Virus record (IMG/VR): IMGVR_UViG_3300009512_000024
Coordinates: 1-41,710 of that record
From: a virus
Direction: 5' to 3' (one strand)
DNA: 41,710 nucleotides
The translations under genes were made by a program, and so were the position numbers. Below are positions 23,434-41,710 of the stretch, in pieces (positions within the stretch are counted from its first letter, which is position 1; each line of letters begins with the position of its first letter). The notes under the pieces were generated by a model that saw only the letters and a list, made by a program, of their open reading frames with translations, was not told the DNA's origin and did not search any database.

Positions 23434-25290
23434 TTAATTTCCTTTTAATGTTTTAAGTGTTGGTGTGCTTACTAATCTTCCAGTATTTAAACCTGCAGAA
23501 TTTACACCAGTCGCAATTGTAGTACCTCTATTTCTTTGCGTTGAATTATATTTTTCTTGTTGTATTTTATTATAAAGATTATTTGCTATTCCTTCTTTAT
23601 AGAATACATTAAGAGAACTAATTTTGTTAGCTTCTGGTATTGGCTCATAGAAAGTTCCATTTCTATCTTTCCATCCACCTCTAATAATAGCTAAATCATT
23701 ATTCTCTATAACAACATCACCAAAACTATCTAAACCTAATTGTGGATCTTCATCTTTTTTCAATACTATTTTTTTATTCTCTATTAAGACTCTTTGATCA
23801 GTTATAGGATCTGTTCCATAAACAGGAATAAAATAAAAACCATTTCTAATAGCTTCTTCATTTCTTTGTGATATAAAGAATACATTTACAGAATCTATAC
23901 CTTCAACGTTTTCTACTATAGAAATTATATCTGATCTAGGAATCCTATCTCTTCTATTTACGTTTAAGAAATAGTCATCTAAATTTTTTCTTATTTCAAT
24001 TCTTATTTCATCTTTATTAAAATCTTCTAACCATCTAATAACAATATTCAGTGCATATTTTCTAATAACGGCATCAACTATTCTAGTTTCTGCTGTAACA
24101 ACTTGCCTACCGCTTTTGTTTAGGATCTCATAAGTCATTGCCTTTTCATCATCAGTCATAGTAAATTCTACCTCAGGTACACTAAAATAATCTACATCAC
24201 TAGTAATTTTCTTTTTTACATCAGGAATTAAAAATAAGTAAATAATATTATCATCATTTAAGTATTCATCATTCTTAGTATTGTAAGCATCTATAAAAGA
24301 CCAAAAATCATACTTACTTAAATAGTAAATATAATTATTAGGGTTTGCTAATACAAATGAATTACTTGCATATGGTGCAATTAATCTTGTAAATTGTGGA
24401 TCCTCAGAATCTGAACCAAAACCTGGATTCCTTGTAATATTAATTGATATGATTTCATTTAAATCTACATTTATACCAGAAGAGTCTGTTCCAAATGTTG
24501 AAAACTTCATATCTAATTGTTTTCCTCCAATATTCCCAGCATTACCTCTTGTCTTTATATATGTAATTCTAATTCTTGACCCTAATGCAGGTGGTAAACC
24601 AAATTGATTATTACCAAAGAACACACTTAATCCACCATTTACTCCAGTTTTAACCATTGCAGTCTTTTCACCGTTGTTCATATCATATAGTGAATCTACT
24701 AATTTCCATAATTGTCCATCAACAAAAACCTCAACTAAAAATTGATCAGTAGGTTCTTTTGTGGTTAAATTATAACTCTGTAATGCAAAACCAGTACCTG
24801 TAAATGATTGTTCATCCTTTTCGCCCTGTACTATTTCAACATCAACAAATGTTTTTGTGGTTTTATCTAATCTGATAAAATCTGAATTAAATCGTAAAAA
24901 ATATGTTAAACCATTTTGAGCGATTTCAAAACTTGCGCCGTTTATAATTTGTACATAATCCCCATTAACGAGGCTAGCAGCACTTGTATTTAAACGTAAT
25001 CCAATTATACCTCTTGATGATATTCCTCGTGTAGGATCATGACCAGTTAATCTAGACAATCCGTATATTGATTCTATATTTCTAGCTCTGGATATATTTA
25101 ATTCAGTAAGAGCAGCCTCTATGTAAAAGAATATCATTTCACCTAAATTTGAAACAACTGTTAATATTTGGCCAAACGGCGAGGCAGGTGTAAATACTTC
25201 AACTGCTTGATTGTATGTACGCTGCAGGTATTCAAACGAATCCTGGAATAGCTCGGTGGCACTTATTCTTGTTTTACTAAAAAATGACAT
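23434..25290 (-). CDS. 6: Baseplate wedge protein gp6-like (baseplate J family)
   Basis: The 618-residue protein (T4 gp6 is 660 aa) follows the gp25-like gene after 13 bases, the conserved gp25-gp6 order of contractile tails. Its start is helical, with FQDSFEYLQRTYNQAVEVF. The baseplate-J pattern follows: FGQILTVVSNLGEMIFFYIE, then ARNIESIYGLSRLTGHDPTR and GIIGLRLNTS. Further on come NGASFEIAQNGLTYFL-type beta-domain strands and IRITYIKTRGNAGNIGG. gp6 dimers form the inner ring of the baseplate and drive the switch to the contracted state. The C-terminal 120 residues carry a Lys/Asp-rich region and a polar tail, probably specific to this phage group. The family call is among the firmest here. 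Confidence 0.85.
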   Translation of the reverse strand: MSFFSKTRISATELFQDSFEYLQRTYNQAVEVFTPASPFGQILTVVSNLGEMIFFYIEAALTELNISRARNIESIYGLSRLTGHDPTRGISSRGIIGLRLNTSAASLVNGDYVQIINGASFEIAQNGLTYFLRFNSDFIRLDKTTKTFVDVEIVQGEKDEQSFTGTGFALQSYNLTTKEPTDQFLVEVFVDGQLWKLVDSLYDMNNGEKTAMVKTGVNGGLSVFFGNNQFGLPPALGSRIRITYIKTRGNAGNIGGKQLDMKFSTFGTDSSGINVDLNEIISINITRNPGFGSDSEDPQFTRLIAPYASNSFVLANPNNYIYYLSKYDFWSFIDAYNTKNDEYLNDDNIIYLFLIPDVKKKITSDVDYFSVPEVEFTMTDDEKAMTYEILNKSGRQVVTAETRIVDAVIRKYALNIVIRWLEDFNKDEIRIEIRKNLDDYFLNVNRRDRIPRSDIISIVENVEGIDSVNVFFISQRNEEAIRNGFYFIPVYGTDPITDQRVLIENKKIVLKKDEDPQLGLDSFGDVVIENNDLAIIRGGWKDRNGTFYEPIPEANKISSLNVFYKEGIANNLYNKIQQEKYNSTQRNRGTTIATGVNSAGLNTGRLVSTPTLKTLKGN

Positions 25291-25726: not shown

Positions 25727-26590
25727 TTATCCTGTAAAAAAGTAATCAACACCCTCATCATTTTTAATTTCTTCAACTACTCTATCAACTTCATCTCGGC
25801 CTTCACTTGAAATTAAATCATAATTAATAGTAATATTACCTGGAAGATTAAATGAAAAGGTTCCTAATATTCTGGCTAATTGAATTTTAGCTATTCCTAT
25901 AACATATCTTTGGAAAGCTTCATCCTCAAATAATGCACAATCAGGAATTGTTGAAAATATTTCAAATATAGTAGCTCTATTTGGTAGTTCACCTTGAAAT
26001 CTAAACTTCTTTGTTAATCTATTATAAGTATATGATATTTGTGGTAAAAGAACTTGTCTTGCATTATCCATAAATAATGAATTTACTACATAGTACATTA
26101 AATTTTCACTACCAAGACCTGCACCATAAACATCATTATAAATAAACTTATCTATTGAAAAATCAACATCATCAGCATTAAAGCTCATACTACCAAAACC
26201 ACCATCTTCACCACTAAATCCACCAATTTCAAATACAGCATTAACTGAATATACTCTTGACGGCATTTGAACAACACCTCTAGGATTAGCAATATTAGCT
26301 TTATTGGTTATTGTTTCTTTATCTGTACCACTGCCATAAGGAACTCCTTGTTTAAAGTCAGCTTTAGTTACAGCTCCAGCCGGTAAAGCAATATACATCT
26401 GCTCTACACTATCTTCATAAATTTTATAAAAATATTGTTTTGCTCTTTGTATAATATTGTTTAATTCTTTCTTAGGAACCGTGAATGGTATCTGGCAAGC
26501 AATAGTAAGATCATCATTAATTAATTTTATTAATGCATCTAAACATTCGGCTTCTGCCGGATCATTACAATATGTATTTGTATTAGCCAT
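25727..26590 (-). CDS. Neck protein, gp13-like candidate
   Basis: The 287-residue protein starts with a helical segment (KKELNNIIQRAKQYFYKIYE), followed by a beta region and then a second half with QISYTYNRLTKKFRFQGELP. The most telling part is the C-terminal helix pair: RYVIGIAKIQLARILGTFSF, then NLPGNITINYDLISSEGRDE. Neck proteins annotated gp13 in T4-like cyanophages carry a similar run of tyrosine/arginine strand, amphipathic helix, LPGG/LPGN turn and acidic helix (family memory, not a search). gp13 connects the head to the tail tube. It ends 60 bases before the gp25-like gene and starts 6 bases past the amidoligase stop. A general virion-connector role is likely; the exact gp number is less sure. 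Confidence 0.55.
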   Translation of the reverse strand: MANTNTYCNDPAEAECLDALIKLINDDLTIACQIPFTVPKKELNNIIQRAKQYFYKIYEDSVEQMYIALPAGAVTKADFKQGVPYGSGTDKETITNKANIANPRGVVQMPSRVYSVNAVFEIGGFSGEDGGFGSMSFNADDVDFSIDKFIYNDVYGAGLGSENLMYYVVNSLFMDNARQVLLPQISYTYNRLTKKFRFQGELPNRATIFEIFSTIPDCALFEDEAFQRYVIGIAKIQLARILGTFSFNLPGNITINYDLISSEGRDEVDRVVEEIKNDEGVDYFFTG

Positions 26591-26596
26591 GCTATT

Positions 26597-27889
26597 TTAT
26601 ATTTTTTCTATTTCAATAATTTCAGTATTCTCAAATTTTGCTAATTCAGTAGCCCTACCTTTTCTAAATATACCACCTTCCATATCTCCACTAAAAACCC
26701 CTCTCATACCAAAAACATATGAATCTTTACAACTTACATTTTTACTTACATAAGAATCTTCTATTTTAGAATCGACAACATCAGTTGAGCCAAACAGATT
26801 ACATTCAGTCATTGATGAATTAATTAACTCTGTGCTAAATATATCACAATTTAAAATATTACCTTGTATTTTAGAATCAACAATATCAATACCTTTTATT
26901 TCAAAGCATTTCATTAACTCTGCACCTTTAAGTTGCATTCTACCAGTATCTGCATCGTAATTAACCAAGCCTTCTTTTAATCCAGCTTTAGTTAATAATT
27001 CAAATAACTGTTGTCTCATTTTAGGGTAATACGTTTCAATTATTTGGTCATACGTTTTTAAATCAACCATTAATCTAATTTTAGGAAATTTTCTTTTGAA
27101 TGCTTGATAAGTTTTATATGACTCTACAATACCTTTGTGTTGTTCTAAGATAACATCTAGTTTTTTAAGATCATCTTTACTGTAAACTGGATTAGCCAAA
27201 CTCTCATATAAAGATACAACAAAATGTTCTGTCATATTCATTATGGTATTATATTTCTTTTCATAGTCCTTACCACCTAAATATCTAAATTCAATATAAT
27301 TCTTAGGTATTTTAGAAAAGTTTACGCCATAATATTTTTCTGACACAAACATGTAATTCTTCCATGAAATTCTTTCAGGAGAAGGTTGTGTCATTCCACT
27401 TAATGGTACAATAAATTTTATAGATTTAGCATAAACAGAATCTCTTCTGTCTGGGAACGCTTCATAGACAGCATTTTCATTGAAGTTAAGAACAAACTTA
27501 CCAATATCTAAAGATGATACATTAGTAGGAGATCCTAATTTTTTTCCATCAAAGGCTACATTAATATGTATAGAACATCTGTCATTGGTAGATCCATTTT
27601 CTCTAATCCATTTTAGAGTCTTTGCAATAATAAGTTTAGATTCAACAAAAGGCATTGGTCCTGTTACTAATTCAATCATCCCAGATCCACCAGAATTATC
27701 TGGTTCTAATTTGAAAATTTCATCGCTAGGTACAAATTCACTGTGCGCCTTTTCCTCGACTCTTATTTGCTTATTTAGAGCTTGAGATAGGTCTCTCTTA
27801 ACTTCATCCATTCCTTCATTGGCAAAGAATTCAAATTCTAATCCAATCTTGGATGCATATATTGCATTTAGCTGTTCGTTAGTATACAT
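26597..27889 (-). CDS. Amidoligase-like enzyme (glutamine-synthetase fold) with C-terminal beta-helix
   Basis: The 430-residue protein shows the motif series of the Amidoligase_2 type, a glutamine-synthetase-like fold. KIGLEFEFF carries E18 and E20; GGSGMIELVTGPMPF carries E73 before the TGP turn; DRCSIHINVAF carries H108 and N110; KNYIEFRYLGGKDYEKK carries E200 and R202. Relatives are predicted to form amide or peptide bonds using ATP, binding Mg through the acidic residues. Residues 220-310 are mainly helical. Residues about 327-412 have short periodic hydrophobic and Cys/Ser/Asp repeats (GNILNCDIFSTELINSSMTE, then NLFGSTDVVDSKIEDSYV), a pentapeptide-like right-handed beta-helix. Substrate is unknown: a virion protein, a host protein or a cell-wall peptide are options. 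It lies between the S1-like and neck-like genes. Its start is one of the few with an SD-like AGGAA. Confidence 0.7.
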   Translation of the reverse strand: MYTNEQLNAIYASKIGLEFEFFANEGMDEVKRDLSQALNKQIRVEEKAHSEFVPSDEIFKLEPDNSGGSGMIELVTGPMPFVESKLIIAKTLKWIRENGSTNDRCSIHINVAFDGKKLGSPTNVSSLDIGKFVLNFNENAVYEAFPDRRDSVYAKSIKFIVPLSGMTQPSPERISWKNYMFVSEKYYGVNFSKIPKNYIEFRYLGGKDYEKKYNTIMNMTEHFVVSLYESLANPVYSKDDLKKLDVILEQHKGIVESYKTYQAFKRKFPKIRLMVDLKTYDQIIETYYPKMRQQLFELLTKAGLKEGLVNYDADTGRMQLKGAELMKCFEIKGIDIVDSKIQGNILNCDIFSTELINSSMTECNLFGSTDVVDSKIEDSYVSKNVSCKDSYVFGMRGVFSGDMEGGIFRKGRATELAKFENTEIIEIEKI

Positions 27890-27900
27890 GTAGTTCCTGA

Positions 27901-27914
27901 TTTGTTTATATATT
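27901..27914 (-). promoter_or_regulatory. Late-promoter-like motif before the amidoligase gene
   Basis: Minus-strand AATATATAAACAAA lies 11 bases upstream of the ATG at 27889, inside the gap after the S1-like gene. It is identical to the motif before the 118-aa gene. Confidence 0.5.
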
Positions 27915-27930
27915 CAAACCAGGATTGGTG

Positions 27931-29070
27931 TTATACTATGTTCATAGTAATCTTACGATCACTTACATTAACACTCCCGATTTTAATATCAATAACATCG
28001 CCTTTTGTTAGGTTTGCTGCTTTTAGTTTAGATTTATGAATTAAACCACTTATTCCTTTTTCTAATTCAACAAATGCACCATAAGAAGTTATTTTAGTAA
28101 CTGTTCCTTTTGTGATCATCATAGGTTTATATTTTTCATCAACACCATCCCATATATCAATCTTAGGACCTAACTGACTTAATATAATCTTTTTCTCTGA
28201 AATAATTTCTTTAGCCCAGAATGTTATTTCATCACCAGGATTTATTGCTTTATTATCTAATGCTCTTTGTGTAGCTTCATCTAATTCAACTCTAGGTATT
28301 AAACCAGTTAAACAATCATCAAATTGAGCAAACACACCAAATTTAGTAGACCCAGTTACAAAACCAGTTCTAACTTCTTTTATATTTTCTTCTAATTCAA
28401 AAATTCTAGTTGGAATCATTGTTCTTAAATATTCTCTATGGGATACTACAATTGTATCTTTTTCATTTGAGAATGTAATTGGCATTACAACGATCTCTTT
28501 ACCTACTAATGAATTAAAATCATGTAATTTATTTAAACCACCTAAAGAACCTGGCATAAAACATTTAATTCCTGCAACATCTACCCAATAACCACCATGA
28601 ATTAATTCTTTAACTAAACCAGTAAAACCAACCTCCTTATTTCCAATAGCATCTTTTATTTCTTGTAATTTAACCTCCATTATTGCATCACTAATTGAAG
28701 CAATAACATCTCCAGTGTTTGAAGTTTTAATTTTAACATCAATTTCTATACCAACTTGTAATTGCTCAACAATATAATCTGGTTCTTTTAATAAAGAACA
28801 AAATGCTGTATGTTTAGATTGTGTATCAATAAGTGCTCTTGTCCTATCAGCAGAAATAAAAGTAATTTCACCTCTAGTTGTATATGATATTCTATCTTCT
28901 GTTAATTGAGTTTTTTGTAAAATAGGATCTGTAAGATTATACATTCCTAAAACATCAGCTGCATAGTGTTCATTACACATTAGCTTTGTTCCGTGTGGAA
29001 CTTGTACCTTTACTGTCTTAGTGTCAAATGGATCATCACTTAATTGGATTGTGATTTCTTGTTCGGTCAT
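27931..29070 (-). CDS. S1-like RNA-binding protein with four S1 domains
   Basis: The 379-residue protein carries four OB-fold S1 repeats at about residues 63-128, 146-212, 233-301 and 318-379. The third and fourth are the clearest: TGFVTGSTKFGVFAQFDDC leading to LTGLIPRVEL, and KGTVTKITSYGAFVELEKGI leading to SGLIHKSKL, both matching the canonical G-x-V-x-x-I-x-x-[FY]-G-x-F-V pattern. The second has a shortened loop (FTGLVKELIHGGYWVDVAGI). Bacterial S1 has up to six repeats and helps bring mRNA to the 30S subunit; Bacteroidota rely little on Shine-Dalgarno pairing. A phage copy could favour phage messages, act in RNA protection or support replication. The N-terminal 60 residues lack a clear S1 fold. 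The gene has its own promoter-like motif and is flanked by structural genes. Confidence 0.82.
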   Translation of the reverse strand: MTEQEITIQLSDDPFDTKTVKVQVPHGTKLMCNEHYAADVLGMYNLTDPILQKTQLTEDRISYTTRGEITFISADRTRALIDTQSKHTAFCSLLKEPDYIVEQLQVGIEIDVKIKTSNTGDVIASISDAIMEVKLQEIKDAIGNKEVGFTGLVKELIHGGYWVDVAGIKCFMPGSLGGLNKLHDFNSLVGKEIVVMPITFSNEKDTIVVSHREYLRTMIPTRIFELEENIKEVRTGFVTGSTKFGVFAQFDDCLTGLIPRVELDEATQRALDNKAINPGDEITFWAKEIISEKKIILSQLGPKIDIWDGVDEKYKPMMITKGTVTKITSYGAFVELEKGISGLIHKSKLKAANLTKGDVIDIKIGSVNVSDRKITMNIV

Positions 29071-29095: not shown

Positions 29096-29110
29096 TTTGT
29101 ATTATATATT
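29096..29110 (-). promoter_or_regulatory. Late-promoter-like motif before the S1-like gene
   Basis: Minus-strand AATATATAATACAAA lies 25 bases upstream of the ATG at 29070, in a 108-base gap after the 199-aa gene. The rest of the gap holds no ORF. A small inverted repeat (CAAC/GTTG, near 29143-29154) is too weak to call a terminator. Confidence 0.45.
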
Positions 29111-29178: not shown

Positions 29179-29778
29179 TTATGATAAACCTACCCATGGA
29201 AAAACATAAGGTAAAGGTGGTACACTTCCTGTGACACCTGTCCAAGTACCGCTCACTGTTGTTAAATGTTTTTTAAATGCGTCATTTAATGCATTGCATA
29301 AATCGTTTGTATTATTTAATTTAAATGCATTACCAATATCAGCTTGTAGTGGCATTATACTCCCACCATTTAGAATAGGATTTAAGGTAGGAACTACGCC
29401 AGGTGGTGGTGGTGGTAATGGTGACATTTGGCCACCGGTCCAATAATCAACTATAGACTGGGCTGCATCTTTCCATACATAATCAGGTATTTCTTGATTC
29501 CATTCTCTAGGAGCAGAAAAAGGTTCCCACGTTACATTATCAGTAGACCATTTCTCAAGTTCTGTAAATGATGATTCAAAACCTATTTGTATGCCAGCAG
29601 CAGTACCTACTGTAATTGGTGGTGTTCCTCCGTATGAAGTTTGAACAGCAATAGCAGCAGCTACATAATTTATTCCAATTTGTGTAGCAAATGGTACGTA
29701 AGAATATGGCTCTGCACCAGTGCTACTGAGTAACCATGCCTTTAATACGCCAATAATAGGTAAAGGAATCCAAGGCAT
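29179..29778 (-). CDS. Spike-adjacent virion protein (199 aa), unknown
   Basis: A 199-residue protein joined to the gp5-like gene by a TAATG overlap, so the two are probably translated together. It starts MPWIPLPIIGVLKAWLLSST, then has a weakly hydrophobic Ala/Gly-rich segment (INYVAAAIAVQ) and a proline run (SPLPPPPPGVVP at about residues 118-129) that likely forms a rigid linker. A polar helix (LNNTNDLCNALNDAFKKHL) and an aromatic end (YVFPWVGLS) follow. I do not recognise the family. Coupling to the spike gene suggests a hub, spike-associated or chaperone-like part. The hydrophobic N-terminus might instead indicate a membrane-contacting factor. Confidence 0.5.
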   Translation of the reverse strand: MPWIPLPIIGVLKAWLLSSTGAEPYSYVPFATQIGINYVAAAIAVQTSYGGTPPITVGTAAGIQIGFESSFTELEKWSTDNVTWEPFSAPREWNQEIPDYVWKDAAQSIVDYWTGGQMSPLPPPPPGVVPTLNPILNGGSIMPLQADIGNAFKLNNTNDLCNALNDAFKKHLTTVSGTWTGVTGSVPPLPYVFPWVGLS

Positions 29779-30689
29779 TAGTCAGTAGTATTTTTTGTGC
29801 TTAAGTATGTACTATTTTTAAATGGTGGTAATGGAGTTCCAGTCACACCGCCTGGCGCAGGATGAACATGAGAGTCAAATAAACTTTTGAATGTATCACC
29901 TTTAACTACAGATTCAGCAGCTGCTTCACCTAATTTAATTCTTGGTGAATTAACATGAGTTTCTCCTGTTGCGTTTATCTTAGCATCAATACAATTAATT
30001 ATAGTATTAGCATCTGCATTAATAACAGTATCAGCTCCACTATTAATTGTAAATTGAGCAGAATGAGTAAATGATATATTTCCATCATTAAGCATTACAA
30101 TAGTATCACCATTTGGATTTATTATTTCTATTGAATTATCTGGCTTTATGTTTACTGTAGTTGGTCCTACTGCCGTGGCATAGTCCATCATTATTCCTTT
30201 TTCCTCAGTAAAGAAAACCTTAACATGTTCTCCTTCTCTATCATTGGTTACTTCAGTACCATTCTCTCCACCAGTTAAACCGAATGCAGTATCATAAATA
30301 AGTACATGTGAGTTTTGGTATGATGCTTCTATTTCAGCCTTTGTTTCATCTGAAGGATAAATGTTTTCGTGATAGATTGGTTGATAAAAATTTCCATTAT
30401 CAAAAGTAAGCCTAACAATAGATCCTATCTTTGGTATTTCAAATTTACCACTACCTGTAGCACTACCACCATACATTAACTGATGTGGTCTTGACCACGG
30501 TAATGAAGCAGTTGGAAGTTTATAATCGCTATTAGGATCTTCAGGATCTACGCGATCATCCATTTTTCCGTATACTCTTATCTTGCATCTTCCTTCAAAG
30601 ATATCATCAGCAGTATCTTCTACAATACCTACCCATTGAGTAGATCTTAAATCATCTGCATTAAAATTTGCTGGATTAACTTTTCCCAT
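29778..30689 (-). CDS. 5: gp5-like baseplate spike, OB-fold plus beta-helix, no lysozyme domain
   Basis: The 303-residue protein has an OB-fold at about residues 17-110 (STQWVGIVEDTADDIFEGRC, then IPKIGSIVRLTF). A beta-helical shaft covers about 175-255, with repeats such as INSGADTVINADANTIINC. The tip is SHVHPAPGGVTGTPLPP, with H274 and H276. An HxH tip that binds iron is known from P2 gpV and similar spikes, so this spike may cap itself rather than use a separate PAAR tip. T4 gp5 (575 aa) has a lysozyme between OB-fold and shaft; here only about 65 residues lie between them, with no lysozyme motif. The spike pierces the outer membrane and plugs the hub. It overlaps both neighbours by one base (TAATG). 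The family call is strong. Confidence 0.85.
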   Translation of the reverse strand: MGKVNPANFNADDLRSTQWVGIVEDTADDIFEGRCKIRVYGKMDDRVDPEDPNSDYKLPTASLPWSRPHQLMYGGSATGSGKFEIPKIGSIVRLTFDNGNFYQPIYHENIYPSDETKAEIEASYQNSHVLIYDTAFGLTGGENGTEVTNDREGEHVKVFFTEEKGIMMDYATAVGPTTVNIKPDNSIEIINPNGDTIVMLNDGNISFTHSAQFTINSGADTVINADANTIINCIDAKINATGETHVNSPRIKLGEAAAESVVKGDTFKSLFDSHVHPAPGGVTGTPLPPFKNSTYLSTKNTTD

Positions 30690-39464: not shown

Positions 39465-41710
39465 TTAGCATGGATCTTGTTGTAATTTAATTGTTATTGT
39501 GTAACCTTTAGGTTCTGTTGTAGTAGCTGACAATGCTTTGACAGATAATGTATCTCCACCAGTCACCTGAGTAGATCCTATTATTGAAAATGTTGGATTA
39601 ACCTCAGCTCGCTGAGCTGTATGCTGGTAAGTAAAGGTGCTCAAAACATTAGAGTAATTTTGCGCATCCCTTATTAATACTTGATAATTAACATTCGCGT
39701 TCTCGGTAGCAGCTCCATAAGCTGCAGTGATTTGACAAACATACCAATCCTGTAGATCTATAGGTATTGTAATAAATGCGTCTTCCCAATCATTACCATT
39801 AGCTAAATAAGTAGTAATAGGTGTATTTGCAGGAATAGCATTAATTCCAATAAGTTCATATGATGTAGCTCCTGTTGGACCTTGTGGTCCTTGTGGACCT
39901 GGTGTTGTTGATGTTGGTCCTTGTGGTCCTTGGTTACCTGTTGGTCCTTGTGGACCTTGCGGCCCTGGATTTACTGATGCATTACCCTGTGGTCCTTGTG
40001 GTCCTTGTGGACCTTGAATACCTGGTCCTTGTGGTCCTTGTGGACCTGGTGTTGTTGATGTTGGTCCTTGTGGTCCTTGTACACCATCTGGTCCTTGTGG
40101 TCCTTGTGGACCTGGTGTTGTTGATGTTGGTCCTTGTGGTCCTTGTACACCATCTGGTCCTTGTGGTCCTTGTACACCATCTGGTCCTTGTGGTCCTTGT
40201 GGACCTGGTGTTGTTGATGTTGGTCCTTGTGGACCTTGTACACCTTCATCACCATATGCAGTAAAACTAACAGTGAACATTGTAGCATTTGGAAAATTAT
40301 TGGTATCTGTAAATACTGTTCCAAGCTGAACCGCATAAACATTAGTTGCAGCAGCAAAGGATATATTAGTTACTAATCCATTTACAAGGTAAGTATTTCC
40401 ATCTGCTGATATTGAAAGTGCACCAAACCCTGTTGTAGTTTTACCTGTATCATTCCATGAATCAATCCAGTTTGTTTGATCTCCAGAGTTTGCAGAAGTT
40501 TTACTAAGGTATAGTGTTTCAACACCACCTCCTGTATTGTCATAGTAAAATAAACCAGATCCAGGTGATACTGTTGCTGCAACAGATTTCCATTCTGGGA
40601 AGTTATTTGGACCTTGTGGACCTTGTGGTCCTTGGATACCATCAGGTCCTTGTGGACCTTGTGGTCCTTGTATACCGTCTACTCCTTGTGGTCCTTGTGG
40701 TCCTTGGATACCTGGACCTTGTGGTCCCTGTGGTCCTTGTATACCATCTACACCTTGTGGTCCTTGTGGACCTTGAATACCATCAACACCTTGTGGACCT
40801 TGTGGTCCTTGTATACCGTCTACTCCTTGTGGTCCTTGTGGTCCTTGTATACCGTCTACACCTTGAGGTCCTTGTGGTCCTTGTATACCGTCTACACCTT
40901 GTGGACCTTGTGGTCCTTGTACACCTATTGGTCCTTGTGGGCCTTGTGGGCCTTGAATACCAGTTATTCCACCTGGAACAAATAAAATATTTACATCATC
41001 ACCACTACCAAATATTGTTCCTTGAGGATTACTAATTGTATATGTCCAATAAGTACTATTATCAGTACTAGCAGTAACAAACGCTGTAAATATGTTTGAA
41101 TCAGTTCCATCAGATGGTCTAATATAAATTATACCTGTAGAATTAGTCTGTGGGAATGAATCTAACCATTCCTCCATATTTGTTCCTAAGCGATTGGTAT
41201 CATGAATAGAAATGCTAGCTATAGATCCTACAGTTGCATTATCAAATGATACTTTACCATTCCCAGGATCTCCTGATGTTGATACTGAAAAATCATAAGG
41301 TACACCACCAGTTTCACCTTGAGCACCAGTATTACCTTGTGGTCCTTGTGGTCCTTGTATACCATCAACACCTTGTGGTCCTTGTGGACCTTGTATACCA
41401 TCAACACCTTGTGGTCCTTGTGGACCTTGAATACCGTCTACACCTTGTGGACCTTGTGGACCCTGTACACCATCAACACCTTGTGGTCCTTGTGGACCTT
41501 GAATACCATCAACACCTTGTGGTCCTTGTGGTCCTTGTATACCGTCTATACCTTGTGGTCCTTGTGGTCCTTGTACACCAATCAAACCTTGTGGTCCTTG
41601 TGGACCTTGTATACCTATTGGTCCTTGTGGACCTTGTACTCCAATTAAACCTTGTGGTCCTTGTGGACCTTGAATACCATCAACACCTTGTGGTCCTTGT
41701 GGACCTTGTA
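39465..41710 (-). CDS. Collagen-like fibre protein with duplicated globular domains (5' end outside window)
   Basis: The frame stays open to position 41710, so the true start lies beyond the window; a TTG at 41583-41585 is only an internal codon. Three Gly-X-Y blocks, mostly [12 protein letters not shown] repeats, are separated by two related globular domains and end in a C-terminal domain. Domain 1 (about 41300-40976) has [10 protein letters not shown] and [18 protein letters not shown]. Domain 2 (about 40606-40250) has [10 protein letters not shown] and [18 protein letters not shown], so it is a diverged duplicate. The C-terminal domain (39868-39465) ends with [12 protein letters not shown]. 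Collagen-like triple helices make rigid trimeric fibres on phages, with globular domains as spacers or binding sites. It is followed by the LamG-like gene. Repeat number may vary by recombination. Confidence 0.85.
39868..40250 (-). repeat. Collagen-coding repeat block C ([10 protein letters not shown] type)
   Basis: Gly-X-Y coding DNA in which [14 protein letters not shown] recurs. On the plus strand the segment GGTGTTGTTGATG begins near 39901, 40048, 40114 and 40207, an irregular tandem arrangement. It differs from the other two blocks in its Thr/Ser-Thr-Thr-Pro interruptions. Confidence 0.8.
40607..40975 (-). repeat. Collagen-coding repeat block B ([12 protein letters not shown] type)
   Basis: Near-perfect 36-base units coding [12 protein letters not shown], with minor synonymous changes. 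It links globular domain 1 to domain 2. Units vary between GVDG, GPDG and GPIG at the third triplet. Confidence 0.85.
41300..41710 (-). repeat. Collagen-coding repeat block A, running off the window
   Basis: The same 36-base type of unit as block B, with GLIGVQ and GPIGIQ variants near 41580-41660 and a [11 protein letters not shown] end before domain 1. The block continues beyond 41710, so its full length is unknown. Confidence 0.85.

Follow-up and report, generated by a model that had tools for sequence, protein, structure and literature searches.

What does an S1-type protein encoded among the tail and baseplate genes of a virus do, and does it act on the ribosome of the host? The gene lies in IMG/VR record IMGVR_UViG_3300009512_000024, a linear 41.7-kb virus record without tRNA genes, which was analyzed over its full 41,710 nucleotides (here called the window). 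A sequence-only reading had seen four S1 repeats in the predicted protein, and the coordinates of the ORF, Pfam, alignment to solved bS1, and an AlphaFold2 model all agree with it. Pfam S1 matched the ORF at 1e-16, with two domains passing individually, and domain profiles found only S1-type domains across all 379 residues. The Pfam and structure-search matches indicate four S1 domains in the order OB1 to OB4 of bS1, where six are the rule for Bacteroidetes bS1; aligned to solved bS1, residues ∼64 to 379 correspond to OB1 to OB4. The top match among solved structures in a sequence search was E. coli bS1 residues 22 to 309 (against residues 66 to 352, 1.8e-30), and a profile of the phage family matched E. 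coli bS1 OB1 to OB4 at 7.6e-41. The same reading had left room for an exonuclease or Tex-like protein, but bS1 fits far better: Tex (1.7e-5, residues 314 to 376) and PNPase (2.7e-5 or worse) match OB4 alone, neither a Tex core nor a catalytic core is present, and a Tex, RNase R, or PNPase identity was therefore excluded. NCBIfam rpsA models matched at up to 7.8e-40, but the best score, 136.7 bits, fell far short of the equivalog cutoff of 624, so we file the protein as a bS1-like homologue and not as an rpsA equivalog.

The AlphaFold2 model shows four OB domains (mean pLDDT, 73.5; pTM, 0.49), with pLDDT values mostly of 65 to 89 in the OB domains and below 50 for residues 20 to 60, which include the anchor helix. 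Its best Foldseek matches were 30S-bound bS1 (9gut_B, 5.6e-25). VIA-align superposed model residues 39 to 216 on OB1-OB2 of 30S-bound bS1 9guq_B (Z, 13.2; 169 aligned; rmsd, 3.9), and OB4 gave Z values of 12 to 13 against single bS1 domains. The top viral model, 80% identical, belongs to Virus NIOZ-UU157; next came uncultured-phage proteins named "30S ribosomal protein S1"; a PHROGs search returned no named family (best E, 0.03). By these comparisons the window protein is a bS1-type S1 protein, closest to OB1 to OB4 of ribosomal bS1. The features discussed below are collected in Table 1.

Table 1. Position of the S1 gene, its predicted domains, and neighboring features in the window
Feature	Coordinates	Strand	Basis or remark
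bS1-like protein, 379 aa, ATG start, OB1-OB4	27931..29070	-	Pfam, solved structures, AlphaFold2
N-terminal anchor helix, residues ∼36-59 (predicted)	28894..28965	-	Y44 aligned with E. coli bS1 F9; low model confidence
OB1, residues ∼61-126	28693..28890	-	K86 aligned with E. coli K43
OB2, residues ∼146-211	28438..28635	-	H158/Y161/F171 aligned with K117/F120/F130 mRNA pocket
OB3, residues ∼231-300	28171..28380	-	Aromatics kept; usual His replaced by Pro259
OB4, residues ∼316-379	27934..28125	-	Y330, F333, H345, D371, R372: all canonical RNA-binding positions
AATATATAAT, promoter-like motif, S1 leader	29101..29110	-	Invariant in aligned leaders
Hairpin TCCTGGTTTG / CAAATCAGGA, AATATATAAA in loop, between S1 and next gene	27895..27924	-	
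Gene directly 3' of S1, 430 aa, conserved neighbor	26597..27889	-	
Head-tail adaptor / neck-like protein	25727..26590	-	phrog_211, 4.8e-12
Baseplate wedge protein	23434..25290	-	phrog_219, 6.3e-24
Baseplate hub-like protein	29778..30689	-	phrog_37871, 2.7e-13

In the cryo-EM structure of E. coli bS1 on the ribosome, F5 and F9 stack on uS2 (F9 on uS2 F32), K43 enters a uS2 pocket, F79 stacks on uS2, and K117, F120, and F130 face the mRNA (PMC10123108). Alignment places V40, Y44, K86, and T119 of the window protein at the positions of F5, F9, K43, and F79. Y44 and K86 are invariant when the phage copies are aligned with Bacteroidales bS1, and among 79 family members K86 and F171 are found in all, Y161 in 78, and Y44 in 77. 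The F5 position is nonaromatic in the phage protein, as it is in most of the Bacteroidota sequences compared, and the residue that makes the F79-uS2 contact is not retained. OB4 carries Y330, F333, and H345 in all 79 members and D371 and R372 in most; OB3 retains two aromatics, with Pro in place of His in 79 of 79. The RNA-binding positions were assigned from the S1 fold as known through PNPase work. By alignment, the putative ribosome-anchoring positions and OB4 are preserved, and OB3 is altered. The copy in Lak-B5 (L036 3611-4720) has no OB4 and carries Ser in place of the anchor Lys; it also has an FDW motif resembling the N terminus of Bacteroidota bS1.

The family is common among viruses. 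A first scan gave 28 marine viral contigs with S1 relatives at 78 to 100% identity, and a profile scan confirmed at least 580 IMG/VR stretches as S1 relatives. The 462-kb phage LR756500 encodes a copy with 44.5% identity over 96%, and the same S1 is present in further huge phages of 635 to 735 kb and in Lak phages of Prevotella; the other huge-phage copies are ∼29 to 36% identical to the window protein. The longest relative contig, G001, spans 181.7 kb and is still linear, and a megablast of 12 kb of the window matched no phage record. In a tree, the phage copies formed one clade (100/99), marked by particular signatures in OB2 and OB3 and separate from the 49 Bacteroidota bS1 sequences and the outgroups, with long branches meeting between them. 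Given the long branch, neither the donor nor the neighboring bacterial group of the phage clade can be named, and function may have shifted along it. The phage S1 is under purifying selection, with dN/dS of 0.07 to 0.21. S1 was absent from the five cultivated jumbo relatives searched, which belong to the outer group of Tenacibaculum, Flavobacterium, and Chryseobacterium phages and Sphingomonas phage PAU, and the searches yielded no cultivated phage that carries this S1. Since the gene is present in the inner clade and lacking in these five outer-group phages, the distribution suggests that S1 was acquired by the ancestor of the inner clade and then retained.

Several S1-like sequences stand apart from this family. 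Matches labeled "Acinetobacter phage MD-2021a" and human-fecal "Bacteriophage sp." were dropped, since those examined were of the full-length bacterial rpsA type: full-length bacterial rpsA is carried by MT835643 ("Bacteriophage sp.") and "Acinetobacter phage MD-2021a" (L034, L042), and the L042 gene sits in a cmk-rpsA-IHF neighborhood, so that its phage label looks wrong. One contig (L027 8001-9142) has the S1 frame split into 135 and 208 aa, either a sequencing error or a decayed copy. A second divergent S1 paralogue of ∼480 to 555 aa is found beside rpsA in some genomes of the Bacteroidota phylum (G066, G108, G112, and others; L180, L182, L184).

The same tail and baseplate genes flank S1 in those marine relatives that were examined and likewise in LR756500, whose neighbor proteins are 31 to 47% identical (S1, 44%). 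In Lak-B5, S1 adjoins genes for a tRNA-His guanylyltransferase and a DnaB-like helicase, with no recognized structural block. The neck-like protein of the window matches proteins annotated as neck in phages of Tenacibaculum and Chryseobacterium, and the baseplate wedge matches best those of S1-bearing phages, then those of Tenacibaculum, Flavobacterium, and Chryseobacterium phages and of Sphingomonas phage PAU; the relatives of the structural proteins mostly infect Bacteroidota. A second pointer to the host is Tyr54 in the bS21 encoded by relatives of the window, which in Flavobacterium johnsoniae is the aromatic that covers the anti-Shine-Dalgarno (anti-SD) sequence (PMC9723584). Together with rare SD sites and an A peak in the leaders (see below), these relatives and Tyr54 make a Bacteroidota host likely, and the window is probably part of a very large virus of marine bacteria. 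The window also encodes a large tail-fiber protein with collagen-like repeats (39465-41585; Pfam Collagen, 1.5e-39) and, amid structural genes, a RuvC-like Holliday junction resolvase (659-1318; phrog_159, 1.6e-12).

Upstream of S1, AATATATAAT is invariant ∼30 to 40 nt before the start codon in 22 aligned leaders; TATATAA occurs in 73 of 78 family S1 leaders and an SD tetramer in none. ATATATAA lies upstream of 7 of 32 window genes (0.28 expected) and of 20 of 180 genes in G001 (1.35 expected). A search of the whole window with one mismatch allowed gave 33 sites versus 30 by chance, which is no excess, so the evidence for the motif is its positional enrichment. We read ATATATAA as a putative phage promoter common to virion genes and S1, and AATATATAA as a candidate promoter. 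The claim that S1 is expressed with late structural genes thus stands in part: fixed synteny and the common motif speak indirectly for coexpression, whereas the late timing of both the motif and S1 is something we infer.

The motif recurs in the loop of the hairpin between S1 and the next gene. Across relatives (L194-L273; window 27889-27930, minus strand) the arms covary while the loop keeps AATATATAAA, and 33 of 39 distinct sequences have a stem of at least 6 around the motif, versus 30% of shuffles. At the extremes, the stem reaches ∼20 bp (L253) or takes in the start codon (L266). The arrangement resembles that of T4 genes whose start is masked by a hairpin in early transcripts and whose late promoter lies in the hairpin loop.

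That nearly all starts in the window lack SD sites was borne out. SD-like tetramers precede 4 of 30 genes (13%, versus 4 ± 3% in shuffled sequence), and no five-base match was found among these 30; in G001, 2% of 159 genes have such a tetramer at -18 to -4, versus 4% shuffled, and T4 as a positive control gave 60% versus 9%. One of the four window tetramers is the AGGA of the gene at 26597-27889, inside the conserved hairpin arm. The S1 loci as a group gave 13% versus 3%, an excess that we rejected as real SD use, since it is largely this AGGA in the leader of the next gene, a hairpin arm (55 of 74 loci). The leaders are also A-rich as described, with an A fraction of 0.64 at -15 to -11 versus 0.36 to 0.39 further upstream.

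Al-Shayeb et al. (2020, PMC7162821) found SD sites to be rare in huge phages with a possible rpS1 and saw in this a sign that the protein may act in initiation; the sequence-only reading had likewise let the lack of SD sites point to S1. We examined this argument with three control phages. In Flavobacterium phage FCL-2 and Cellulophaga phage phi38:1, neither of which encodes a protein with an S1 domain, SD frequencies are 4% and 6% (3 to 4% shuffled), and A peaks at -15 to -11 as well (0.56); crAss001 is somewhat richer in SD-like tetramers (26% versus 9% shuffled) and hence a weaker control. S1-less Bacteroidota phages are therefore equally SD poor and A-rich, the cultivated jumbo relatives also do without S1, and the host phylum explains the SD-poor leaders. 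The correlation between S1 and missing SD sites is confounded by host, and we dropped it as support for an S1 role. As the signature is common to S1-less phages, it is no evidence of coadaptation between S1 and the leaders or of a preference for phage mRNA.

A second ribosomal protein, bS21, is encoded by three relatives from the window's own clade (G001, G002, G130), by 12 of 20 long S1-bearing contigs above the cutoff (G130 and about 11 more distant ones), and by 4 of 6 huge or Lak genomes with this S1, counts that are not independent because most of these contigs are pieces of related viral genomes. Within the phage collection, the G001 bS21 matched best the S1-bearing huge phages. It was not seen in LR756500, in Lak-B5, or in the 41.7-kb window fragment; in G001, G002, and G130 it lies 25 to 27 kb upstream of S1, and the window extends 12.6 kb on that side. 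The five S1-less cultivated relatives searched have no bS21. Conversely, a bS21 scan gave five out-of-clade contigs (fragments of up to 125 kb) on which S1 was not matched, so bS21 may occur without S1, the contigs being fragmentary. In the ribosome, bS21 bridges OB1 to 16S rRNA (PMC10123108), and a bS1/bS21 pairing makes structural sense on that account.

We propose that the virus produces, alongside its virion genes, a bS1 homologue reduced to OB1 to OB4, whose N-terminal helix and OB1 would dock on uS2 of the host 30S subunit. Docking would either replace loosely held host bS1, a displacement that we infer, or use 30S subunits without bS1. Messages without SD sites would next be gripped by OB2 to OB4 at their A-rich 5' leader (about -11 to -15), which would help translation to start at a time of high demand for virion proteins, and the phage bS21 in many relatives would refit the same mRNA-exit platform. 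Published work gives the parts of this scheme a basis. E. coli grows nearly normally on an S1 that lacks domains 5 and 6, and domains 1 to 3 retain the 30S activities of S1 (PMC3858243), so shortness does not disable an S1 of four domains. Initiation on a message without an SD site increased twofold when bS1 was supplied in F. johnsoniae (PMC9976891), and bS1 domain 4 sits at mRNA positions -12 to -15 (PMC6847099), which coincide with the A peak of the phage leaders. Against the proposal stand the loss of the OB3 His, the missing OB5 and OB6, and a score below the rpsA cutoffs. On the conserved contact positions, the phage S1 probably docks on the 30S subunit, and we lean toward the proposal as a whole, an initiation helper made with the virion genes. 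That it would prefer phage over host mRNA seems doubtful, given leaders that look like those of other Bacteroidota phages.

The same leaders fit a protein that simply adds to the loosely bound host bS1 at late times and treats phage and host messages alike, and bS1 is indeed substoichiometric in purified F. johnsoniae ribosomes (PMC9976891). An ancient, divergent, phage-specific clade whose OB2 and OB3 carry distinct signatures suggests more than dosage, however, as does the presence of bS21 in many relatives, and we consider such a supplement unlikely. A short bS1 might instead be a decoy that occupies uS2, handles ordinary messages poorly, and so lowers host translation; the anchor residues are better conserved than the RNA-binding set of OB3, and OB5 and OB6 are missing. 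Yet OB4 keeps every canonical RNA-binding residue, E. coli S1 functions without domains 5 and 6, and the position among virion genes that share its motif fits a need for translation and not shutoff. A general block would also hurt both partners, since phage leaders resemble those of the host type, and the decoy is decidedly improbable.

Two further possibilities place the protein off the ribosome. It might protect or unwind phage mRNA, act with transfer-messenger RNA (tmRNA), or aid a ribonuclease, as host S1 does with T4 RegB and with Q-beta replicase; OB4 has the makings of a canonical RNA binder, interaction of S1 with tmRNA is known, and the 181-kb relative encodes a tmRNA. The uS2-contact positions, kept in 77 to 79 of 79 members, would not be needed there, and we give this idea little credence. 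The tmRNA of G001 (L125 3184-3528 = G001:43184-43528; Rfam, 77.8 bits; tag DNAELAMAA) is followed by tRNA-Ala, three more tRNAs lie elsewhere in that contig, and G130 has a subthreshold tmRNA match. A baseplate OB-fold protein, perhaps injected, would account for a gene inside the baseplate/tail block of marine relatives and LR756500, and baseplate hubs contain OB folds too; but all top structure and sequence matches are to ribosomal S1, the Lak-B5 copy lies outside any recognized structural block, and a virion role is very hard to credit.

The preferred reading, a 30S-docking helper, can be set against known systems. With ribosomal bS1 (rpsA) the phage protein shares the order and spacing of OB1 to OB4, the N-terminal helix, the uS2-contact Lys and aromatic, the aromatic pocket of OB2, and a canonical OB4. 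It differs in length and domain number (379 aa and four domains, where Bacteroidota bS1 has six in ∼600 aa), and in having its own N-terminal extension (∼35 residues ahead of the helix), an altered OB3, a separate clade, and scores below the equivalog cutoffs. The rpS1 of huge phages (Al-Shayeb et al. 2020, PMC7162821) and of Lak phages belongs to the same family and to one clade (100/99), with SD sites rare; the window S1, unlike these, falls in a marine subclade centered on Virus NIOZ-UU157, whose protein is 80% identical, the Lak version lacks OB4, and the window is a linear 41.7-kb fragment. Phage bS21 (Chen et al. 2022, PMC9723584), with its suggested role of redirecting late translation, is likewise a 30S-platform ribosomal protein of large Bacteroidota phages, and its Y54 is kept in the window's relatives, but there bS21 lies among small genes and not in a capsid/terminase block, and S1 is a different protein. 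The jumbo cyanophage PhiMa05 also has an S1 gene, annotated rpsA, but its protein falls outside this phage clade in the tree, and it is accompanied by other ribosomal proteins, the six reported not including bS21 (PMC13157829). Mizuno et al. set S1 aside because the domain is ambiguous.

The presence of rpS1 in huge phages with rare SD sites is already known (PMC7162821). What is new is a residue-level case, from alignment, for a bS1-like family predicted to keep the ribosome anchor, together with the bS21 association, the shared motif, the conservation of the locus, and the control that exposes the SD confounding. With S1 in this virus and bS21 in its relatives, the virus may refit the message-loading site of the ribosome late in infection. 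A bolder version, in which a bS1-bS21 pair of giant Bacteroidota phages rebuilds the 30S mRNA-exit platform into a late, phage-specialized form that would read A-rich leaders through OB4 without SD sites, we offer as a speculation that is more apt to be wrong than right. Message choice in bacteria that hide the anti-SD sequence still awaits an explanation; bS1 is a proposed, not directly proven, reader of A-rich leaders. A phage bS1 of OB1 to OB4 only, often accompanied by bS21, offers itself as a minimal test of this idea and of whether viruses specialize ribosomes.
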